In this document: positions 19,687-21,450 of the stretch, piece after piece
Layout of the letters: each line of letters begins with the position of its first letter
How positions within the stretch are numbered: the first letter of the stretch is position 1
Origin: Actinomycetes bacterium
Lineage (GTDB): Bacteria; Actinomycetota; Actinomycetes; Actinomycetales; Cellulomonadaceae
Assembly: GCA_021793115.1 (NCBI GenBank)
Contig: JAJYTJ010000055.1
Location: forward strand, 1-22,115
Direction: 5' to 3'
DNA length: 22,115 bases
Notes under the pieces: model-generated
Database searches by the model: none
The model's input: only the letters and a program-made list of their open reading frames with translations
What the model was told of the DNA's origin: nothing
Made by a program: the position numbers and the translations under genes

Positions 19687-21282
19687 TCAGCGGGGTGGGA
19701 CCCCCAGGTGGTGCAGGCCCCAGATCGCCGAGTCGGTCAGCGCCTCCCAGGACGCCTCGATGACGTTCGGGCCGACGCCGACCGTCATCCACGTCGTCGT
19801 GCCGTCGCTCGTCTCGATGAGGACCCTCGTGGTGGCGTCCGTGCCGTGCTGCGTGTCGAGGATCCGCACCTTGAAGTCGATGAGGACGAACGCCTCGAGC
19901 TCCGGGTAGACGCGGACGAGCGCCCGGCGCAGCGCCTGGTCGAGGGCGTTGACCGGGCCGTTGCCCTCGCCCGTGCTGACGATCCGCTCGCCGCCCGCGG
20001 TGAGCTTGACGGTGGCCTCGGCGAGCGCCGGGGTGCCCCGGCCGCCGCGGCGCTCGACGATGGTGCGCCACGACTCCACCGTGAAGTAGCTCGGCCGCCC
20101 GCCCGCCGCCTCCTCGAGGAGCAGCAGCTCGAAGCTGGCGTCCGCCGCCTCGTACGTGTAGCCGTTCGCCTCGGCGTCCTTCACCCGGTTGGCCACGCGC
20201 GTGAGCACCTCGGGTCGGCCCGAGAGGTCGAAGCCGAGCTCGCGGCCCTTGAGCTCCACGGAGGCGCGGCCGGCCATCTCGGAGACGAGCATGCGCATGT
20301 CGTTGCCGACGTTGGCGGGGTCCGTGTGCTGGTACAGGTCGGGGTCCACCCGGATGGCGCTGGCGTGCAGGCCGGCCTTGTGCGCGAAGGCGCTGGTTCC
20401 GACGTAGGGCTGGCGCGCGAACGGCGAGATGTTGGTGATCTCGCTGATGGCGTGCGCGGTGCGCGTGAGGTCGCGCAGGCCGCCGCCGTCCACCGCGTGG
20501 AGCACCGGGCGGCCGTACTTCAGCTCGAGGTTCGCGACGACGGTCAGCAGGTCGGCGTTCCCCGTGCGCTCGCCGTACCCGTTGACGGTGCCCTGCACGT
20601 GCGTGGCGCCGGCGTCCACGGCGGCGAGCGTGTTGGCCACCGCGCACCCGGAGTCGTTGTGCGCGTGCATCCCCAGCACGGCGTGCGGTCCCACCGCGGC
20701 GCGCACTGCCGTGACGATCTCGCCCACGCCGCGGGGCAGCATGCCGCCGTTGGTGTCGCACAGCGCGACGACCTCCGCGCCCGACTCGAAGGACGCGCGC
20801 ACCGCCGCCAGCGCGAAGTCCTCGTCGTAGCGGTAGCCGTCGAAGAAGTGCTCCACGTCGACGACCACCCGGCGGCCCTCCAGCACGAGGAACGACACGG
20901 TGTCGCGGATCATCGCGAGGGCCTCGTCCCTCGTCGTGCGCAGCGCCCGCTCGACGTGACGGATGTCGCTCTTGGCGACCAGCGTGACGATCGGCGTCTC
21001 GGCGTCGACGAGCGCCCGCACCTGCGGGTCGTCGACGGCGCGGACGCCCGCCTTGCGCGTGGCGCCGAACGCCGCGAGCTCGGCGTTCTTGAGGTCGAGC
21101 TCCTTGGCGGCGCGCTTGAAGAACTCGGTGTCCTTGGGCACCGCGCCGGGCCAGCCCCCCTCGATGACGCCCATGCCGAGGTCGTCGAGGAGCGCGGTGA
21201 TGAGCAGCTTGTCGGTGACCGAGAGGTTGATCCCCTCCTGCTGGGCACCGTCGCGCAGCGTGGTGTCGTAGACCTGGAACAA
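19687..21282 (-). CDS. cimA: Citramalate synthase
   Basis: A 531-residue enzyme of the isopropylmalate/homocitrate synthase group. It condenses pyruvate and acetyl-CoA to (R)-citramalate, the entry to isoleucine that bypasses threonine. Seen: YDTTLRDGAQQEG (5-17; R10, D11), the metal motif HAHND (206-210), and NGYGERTGNADL. The C-terminal 150 residues form the LeuA-type dimer domain for feedback control (LEAFVLIDFKVRILD, TTWMTVGVG). The length and the AQQEG variant favour CimA over LeuA. TTG at 21282 is chosen: AAGGAG stands 8 bases upstream and the next residues start the barrel. An attenuator lies 60 bases further up. Confidence 0.92.
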   Translation of the reverse strand: MFQVYDTTLRDGAQQEGINLSVTDKLLITALLDDLGMGVIEGGWPGAVPKDTEFFKRAAKELDLKNAELAAFGATRKAGVRAVDDPQVRALVDAETPIVTLVAKSDIRHVERALRTTRDEALAMIRDTVSFLVLEGRRVVVDVEHFFDGYRYDEDFALAAVRASFESGAEVVALCDTNGGMLPRGVGEIVTAVRAAVGPHAVLGMHAHNDSGCAVANTLAAVDAGATHVQGTVNGYGERTGNADLLTVVANLELKYGRPVLHAVDGGGLRDLTRTAHAISEITNISPFARQPYVGTSAFAHKAGLHASAIRVDPDLYQHTDPANVGNDMRMLVSEMAGRASVELKGRELGFDLSGRPEVLTRVANRVKDAEANGYTYEAADASFELLLLEEAAGGRPSYFTVESWRTIVERRGGRGTPALAEATVKLTAGGERIVSTGEGNGPVNALDQALRRALVRVYPELEAFVLIDFKVRILDTQHGTDATTRVLIETSDGTTTWMTVGVGPNVIEASWEALTDSAIWGLHHLGVPPR

Positions 21283-21341
21283 CGGATCTGCTCCTTCGTC
21301 GGGACGTCGCGGGACGGGCGAGGGGTGGTACCCGGTACAAC

Positions 21342-21370
21342 AAAAAGACCCCCCGTGGTACGGGAGGTCT
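21342..21370 (-). terminator. Attenuator terminator upstream of cimA
   Basis: On the minus strand AGACC-T-CCCGT pairs with ACGGG-G-GGTCT (one wobble) around loop ACC, followed directly by a T-run (21346-21342). It is the most canonical intrinsic terminator in the window and lies 60 bases before the cimA start, so it must control cimA from its leader. Confidence 0.88.
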
Positions 21371-21431
21371 GCGCGCCGGCGGGTGGGCCGACGCGCTAGC
21401 CGATAATCAGCGAGTACTGATGCACGGACCC
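21365..21431 (-). promoter_or_regulatory. cimA leader: competing hairpins of an attenuator
   Basis: Reading 5' to 3' on the minus strand: ATCAG (21421-21417) pairs with CTGAT (21410-21406). Then GCGCGTCGGC (21396-21387) pairs with GCCGGCGCGC (21380-21371) around CCACCC. GGGTCCGTGC (21431-21422) can instead pair with GCGCAGACCT (21374-21365) at 9 of 10 positions, using the base of the second hairpin and the 5' arm of the terminator. That is an antiterminator layout. Pairings are seen; the switch is inferred. Confidence 0.65.
21396..21425 (-). CDS. Putative cimA leader peptide
   Basis: GTG at 21425 opens a nine-residue frame, MHQYSLIIG, ending in TAG at 21398-21396, which sits at the base of the second leader hairpin. 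It has adjacent Ile codons, ATT then ATC; ATT is rare in this GC-rich genome. A ribosome waiting there for Ile-tRNA would cover the 5' arm of the hairpin at 21371-21396. The same frame could start at GTG 21443. An overlapping ATG frame (MGPCISTR) is the alternative. No ribosome site is visible; the leader may be read from near its 5' end after the TAGGTT box at 21445-21450. Confidence 0.5.
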   Translation of the reverse strand: MHQYSLIIG

Positions 21432-21444
21432 ATGGTGACACACG

Positions 21445-21450
21445 AACCTA
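21445..21450 (-). promoter_or_regulatory. Possible -10 box of cimA leader transcript
   Basis: TAGGTT on the minus strand, 14 bases before the ATG at 21434-21432 region and 20 before the GTG at 21425. No clear -35 is seen. Confidence 0.4.

Follow-up and report, generated by a model that had tools for sequence, protein, structure and literature searches.

A probable isoleucine-shortage switch before the citramalate synthase gene cimA in many actinobacteria

In a Cellulomonadaceae contig (JAJYTJ010000055.1), of which we analysed a stretch of 22,115 nucleotides, hereafter the window, the citramalate synthase gene cimA is preceded by a short ORF with isoleucine codons, a hairpin that we call stem A, and an intrinsic terminator. 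The same arrangement stands before cimA in many actinobacteria and is therefore probably a switch that responds to isoleucine shortage: the leader would turn on isoleucine production when isoleucine runs short. We consider it likely that the device is a ribosome-mediated transcription attenuator, which adjusts cimA expression to how much charged isoleucine tRNA is available. This view is built from sequence, namely the parts themselves, the covariation of their stems, the isoleucine codons and their spacing, and the recurrence of the whole before cimA; from these we infer termination in the cell and its response to isoleucine. A sequence-only reading of the window had already proposed ribosome-mediated attenuation here. 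The type of control stands, as do conserved Ile codons, stems and terminator; the antiterminator that it proposed does not.

The gene is identified as cimA by a TIGR00977 score of 610 bits against a cut-off of 450, and AAGGAG sits 8 nt upstream of its start codon. Read 5' to 3' on the minus strand, the parts follow in the order -10-like element, leader ORF, stem A, terminator, cimA (Table 1). The nine-codon ORF with adjacent ATT ATC that the earlier reading described is present, and so is its terminator with a T-run about 60 bases before the TTG, the distance being 59 nt. The parts are packed closely: stem A begins (21396) on the final base of the leader ORF's TAG stop codon, and the terminator adjoins stem A without a linker. 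The leader folds with a minimum free energy of -53.7, against -35.9 (sd 3.2) in shuffled sequences (z -5.6), and a terminator scan of positions 19000-22115 returned three overlapping matches where 0.3 were expected. Upstream of the promoter, at the end of the window, tandem repeats crowd positions 21602-22114 (a 14-base unit in 8.6 copies, a 30-base unit in 2.8 and a 27-base unit in 2).

Table 1. Features of the cimA leader region in the window.
Feature	Position	Strand	Basis
cimA, citramalate synthase, 531 aa, TTG start	19687..21282	-	NCBIfam TIGR00977 match
Leader peptide ORF MHQYSLIIG*, nine codons, GTG start, probably leaderless	21425-21396	-	ORF and comparison
Ile codons ATT ATC of the leader ORF	21407-21402	-	
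Stem A (GCGCGTCGGC...GCCGGCGCGC), proposed antiterminator	21396..21371	-	folding and covariation
Intrinsic terminator, stem 21370-21346, U-run to 21342	21370..21342	-	terminator scan and covariation
Extended -10-like element TGT-CACCAT	21440-21432	-	comparison of 78 leaders

Related upstream regions were collected with one CimA scan, which yielded 80 loci (L001-L080; record titles mostly Cellulomonas, Cellulosimicrobium, Isoptericola, Sanguibacter, Actinotalea and Oerskovia) and, with the window, 81 regions upstream of cimA. The closest, from Cellulomonas sp. 73-92, is 94% identical. The element is found in 78 of the 81 regions by pattern and in 79 by a looser parse; the two regions without it are L032, where the contig starts 13 nt ahead of cimA, and L057, where cimA lies behind ilvE. 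Parsing from the -10 element to the terminator gave 78 leaders, L061 being left out as it starts inside the leader. Every one of the 78 has at least one Ile codon at a fixed place: the second fixed codon, nearer the stem, is Ile in 76 and the first in 68. These regulatory codons are exclusively ATT or ATC, and the peptide is between 9 and 16 residues long. Similar constancy holds outside this set, where all 59 further cimA leaders that were read have Ile at the fixed place, with two adjacent Ile codons in 57 (the codons were located at model positions 1-9, and one of the 59, L131, duplicates L080). A short ORF with codons for the end product is thus common to the cimA leaders seen (78/78 and 59/59), and an intrinsic terminator, recognised by sequence and covariation, lies between it and the structural gene. 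In the spacers from U-run to cimA, available for 79 of the 81 regions, the motif CACCACC[CAT] occurs at least once in 47 and at least twice in 12.

The promoter that had been suggested upstream stands in part. A sigma-70 consensus scan of 19000-22115 found none, so the claim rests on comparison, in which TGT-CACCAT emerges as a conserved element. A hexamer NANN[AC]T is present 6-7 nt before the leader start codon in 78/78 parsed leaders, and TGN precedes it in all 78, though the search did not require TGN; in the window the element ends 6 nt before the GTG. This spacing places the putative transcript start at about 21425, around the leader start codon, and the message is probably leaderless, with translation of the peptide beginning at its 5' end. 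Most copies of the -10-like element read CANNAT after the TGN, not TANNNT (at 21432-21440 and the homologous sites of L001-L080), and a regulator or a special use of the promoter is possible.

The alignment of relatives that had been suggested as a check speaks for the proposed attenuation, the Ile codons being conserved and both stem A and the terminator showing compensatory changes. Among 67 distinct sequences, 96.0% of alignment cells pair, against 89.7% after shuffling and at most 57.9% when the columns are slid by 1-3, and both-sided changes occur in 6/10 pairs of stem A and 3/10 of the terminator. In 57 further cimA leaders outside the model (56 distinct), 96.2% pair against 83.7% shuffled, with both-sided changes in 6/10 pairs of each, in an alignment that was fitted to the structure and so leans towards it. 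The foot of stem A is a case apart: its 5' strand is GCGC in 67/67 and 56/56 distinct cimA leaders (window 21396-21393/21374-21371), and its pairs are constant except for one and two G-U cases, in the respective sets, at the third pair. As far as the alignments can tell, this is more constancy than pairing alone demands. Of 137 cimA leaders (the duplicate L131 included), 136 have 0-1 nt between stem A and the terminator and one has 2 nt, and the two structures have no bases in common in the fold. The loop of stem A varies widely in size and is not conserved.

Two hairpins had been described ahead of the terminator. The second is stem A, which covaries; the first (about 21421-21406) is not conserved, a stem of at least 6 pairs in the ORF region being found in only 6/78 leaders, and a protector hairpin inside the ORF was rejected on the same count. 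We also set aside a pairing of the C-rich stem A loop with the G-run of the terminator, which makes 7/8 pairs by eye in the window and is absent from loops such as those of L041, L071 and L072. Conservation and structure at the 5' end, upstream of a biosynthesis gene, would also suit a ligand-binding RNA (a riboswitch or a T-box), but we find this scarcely credible: no Rfam family matches the cimA leader (searched were the window and 11 related loci at gathering score, and 21270-21480 at E up to 1), stem A has no conserved loop, and it adjoins a conserved ORF.

The earlier reading offered a different antiterminator, of the classical kind, in which GGGTCCGTGC pairs with GCGCAGACCT and so breaks both the second hairpin and the terminator. 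As arithmetic the pairing exists, at 9/10 in the window and 8/10 in the closest relative, L001. At homologous positions it falls to 4-6/10 in 64/78 leaders, and the best of 24 registers resembles shuffled controls. Moreover, the 5' strand (21431-21422) spans -6 to +4 relative to the start codon of the leader ORF and would be mostly untranscribed if transcription starts at the GTG. Comparison thus refutes this pairing as a conserved mechanism, and we regard the classical scheme as very improbable; in the folding described next, stem A is the better antiterminator candidate.

We folded the 78 leaders with a ribosome footprint masked at Ile codon 1, at Ile codon 2 or at the stop codon. Stem A keeps at least 6 pairs in its first nine bases in 78/78 leaders with the ribosome at Ile codon 1 and in 73/78 at Ile codon 2; at the stop codon it keeps 3 or fewer in 78/78. 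For front edges from P+12 to P+16, at least 4 stem A pairs remain in every one of the 78 leaders at Ile codon 1, in 66-78 of them at Ile codon 2 and in none at the stop. The contrast blurs beyond this range: with the edge at P+10, 64/78 retain at least 4 pairs at the stop codon, and at P+17 0/78 retain them at Ile codon 2. Within those limits stem A is, in computation, a second structure whose formation is decided by the position of the ribosome. The terminator is predicted to form in 78/78 without a ribosome and with one at either Ile codon, and in 75/78 with one at the stop. Being predicted at nearly any ribosome position, it would not be excluded by stem A taking its bases; folding alone yields the terminator nearly always, so no base-pair competition is visible.

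A terminator predicted at any ribosome position in at least 75/78 leaders would also suit a constitutive terminator behind a small ORF, with no response to isoleucine. This we judge unlikely, because a constitutive arrangement leaves unexplained the Ile codons, which hold their place in all 78 and all 59 leaders while the peptide around them changes length, and the Val/Leu codons that occupy the same place before ilvB.

The attenuator that we favour would operate as follows. Transcription would begin at or next to the leader GTG, giving a message that is translated leaderless. When isoleucine is ample, the ribosome would reach the stop codon and cover the 5' arm of stem A; the terminator would then form and transcription end near 21342. 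When isoleucine is short, the ribosome would wait at ATT ATC with its front edge at the foot of stem A, and stem A could fold between ribosome and polymerase. Because the folded stem would abut the terminator with no spare nucleotide, the terminator would be hindered from zipping to its base, and the polymerase would continue into cimA. The roles thus change from those first assigned, where stalling covered the 5' arm of the second hairpin: stalling would allow the hairpin and a ribosome at the stop would remove it. Extension of stem A into the 5' arm of the terminator was considered and rejected, A lying mostly opposite A at the foot in the alignment, and an edge at P+13 placing the bases before the foot under the stalled ribosome.

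Abutment is the least certain step: stem A may prevent the last terminator pairs from forming next to the polymerase. Twenty-six ilvB leaders bear on it, those of eight of these genomes and 18 others. They have the same part order with Val/Leu-rich peptides, and 26/26 have a stem begun by GCGC followed by one last hairpin. The leader peptide, GCGC-footed stem and neighbouring terminator of the ilvB type are all found in the cimA leader too. Their stem-hairpin linkers are looser than those of the cimA leaders, at 0 nt in 12, 1 nt in 7, 2 nt in 6 and 3 nt in one (for L223 the scripted choice took an earlier GCGC than the one seen by reading); strict contact of stem A and terminator is therefore not general.

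Alternatively, stem A might be mainly a pause hairpin that keeps polymerase and ribosome in step, antitermination being achieved in another way, for example through NusG or NusA, through contact of the stalled ribosome with the polymerase, or through a protein that knows the GCGC foot. Only the 5' arm of the terminator, 10-11 nt, separates the foot of stem A from the terminator loop, and this is about the reach of known pause hairpins. The constancy of the foot in both sets, beyond what pairing asks, and the lack of bases common to the two structures speak for such a role as well. Abutment accounts more simply for the short linker (0-1 nt) in the cimA leaders, and we hold the pause or factor account to be the less probable, at perhaps a chance in several. 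Returning to abutment, we tentatively suggest, while thinking it rather doubtful in this full form, one actinobacterial switch whose antiterminator has no bases in common with its terminator. A hairpin, its foot always GCGC and exposed only when the ribosome stalls, would abut the terminator and stop it closing in the exit channel of the polymerase. Retuned by its codons, the one module would serve cimA with Ile, ilvB with Val/Leu/Ile and, in some genomes, an ilvA-like gene with Ile-Thr.

The distribution of the leader was followed with a covariance model at E 0.001 or better, the totals including ilvB leaders. Matches came from 171 of the 396 order genomes and from 237 of the 394 drawn from the class. 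All 40 of the order matches that were picked and fetched lie before cimA (29 further loci, L097-L125, stand outside this count), as do 18 of 20 fetched from the class, the other two lying before ilvB. Matches track CimA, being present in 153 of the 211 order genomes with CimA (E 1e-150) versus 18 of the 185 without. Twelve of these 18 were re-examined and comprise ten ilvB leaders, one cimA leader at a contig end and one that appears unrelated by eye. In another listing, 30 loci (a 31st match had no locus) divide into 4 before cimA, 15 before ilvB, 5 before an ilvA-like gene, 2 before another gene and 4 unrelated by eye.

Conversely, 58 order genomes have CimA without a model match, and we read 15 of them (L254-L268). 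Nine have ilvE upstream, by NCBIfam match of a fragment, and three (L256, L258, L264) likewise by eye; the ilvE-cimA gap is short in most of the nine and roughly 130-200 nt in L267 and L268. L265 has a leader that the filters missed, and L260 and L262 show neither leader nor ilvE. In L057 and 12 of the 15, then, cimA lies behind ilvE and the leader is absent, and the leader therefore appears tied to those cimA genes that have a separate promoter. Threonine ammonia-lyase was found in 9/9 related genomes, so cimA need not be the sole route to isoleucine.

Some copies precede other genes. In five loci from genomes of 7.5-10 Mb (L198, L205, L206, L207, L211) the same anatomy, with Ile-Thr codons, stands before an ilvA-like gene of the threonine ammonia-lyase type; the three that were scanned score 278-285 bits with TIGR01127, below its cut-off of 379, and the assignment in L206 and L207 was made by eye. 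A further leader copy with Ile codons is present in L196 (genome G503) and L197 (genome G576). The L196 copy stands before the gene of a small protein that matches an ACT domain weakly (E 0.005, below cut-off). G503 has a third copy, and G576 also carries cimA and ilvB leader copies.

The belief that no cimA leader had been described agrees with our search. None is among the literature matches listed, which included few subscription journals; Lopatovskaya, Seliverstov and Lyubetsky (2010) could hold one. Neither cimA nor citramalate is mentioned in PMC8079986, PMC13236596, PMC11109978, PMC8269248, PMC2965389, PMC11857589, PMC1262725 or PMC10272879, and the passages of PMC3223726 and PMC13158618 retrieved by search terms contain no cimA leader. 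The probable cimA isoleucine attenuator is widespread and apparently unreported so far, though of a kind already known. With it, leader-peptide control would extend, in many genomes of a whole class, to the gene that opens the citramalate route to isoleucine, and engineering of isoleucine or citramalate production in actinobacteria might make use of this control or remove it.

Relatives of the device are known mainly from ilvB. Passages of a 2005 survey (PMC1262725) describe ilvB leaders of Corynebacterium, Mycobacterium and Streptomyces, call their exact mode unclear, and cite an S. coelicolor ilvB leader in which mutation of the candidate codons had no effect. Like the cimA leader, these have a short ORF with Ile/Val/Leu codons at a terminator; unlike it, the ORF is said to overlap the terminator, and the survey mentions no cimA or ilvA case. 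The cimA leader makes the ilvB question of that survey directly testable: how two non-overlapping hairpins might be mutually exclusive. Streptomyces lividans ilvL and other leaders (PMC8079986) resemble it in their leaderless peptides, hairpins and U-rich stretch, cimA being absent from the eight leaders in the list given there. For M. tuberculosis ilvB1NC, parts of PMC13236596 report terminated leader RNA and induction on blocking the pathway, and propose masking of the antiterminator by a ribosome at the stop codon; a uORF (LVVI codons), a terminator and this masking are held in common with the cimA leader, the gene, ilvB1, is not.

The nearest counterpart is ilvBNC of C. glutamicum, the subject of a mutational study (PMC11857589). 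As its passages on the leader have it, the feet of antiterminator and terminator lie side by side with a common GCC, and stalling chooses between them; the mutants act mostly through terminator stability, mutations of the antiterminator being moderate to weak in effect. That stalling allows the antiterminator and a ribosome at the stop codon masks it has been proposed with experimental support for ilvB of both C. glutamicum (PMC11857589) and M. tuberculosis (PMC13236596), in the portions of these papers that treat it. The ilvB-II motif, in what PMC10272879 and PMC11109978 say of it, has all its representatives in Corynebacterium, and the former, of 2023, draws another antiterminator, the lower P2 with the P1 loop. 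Set beside ilvBNC/ilvB-II as these sources portray it, the cimA leader has the same leaderless peptide with branched-chain codons, the antiterminator hairpin soon after it, a terminator foot adjoining the antiterminator and the same ribosome logic. It differs in its gene and in reading Ile, where C. glutamicum has ilvB, Leu/Val/Ile codons and a proposed third hairpin, and in its fold, in which no trinucleotide, nor any base, is shared by antiterminator and terminator as the GCC is in the C. glutamicum hairpins. The cimA leader would work like the ilvB-type attenuator of C. glutamicum; it is not the same motif.
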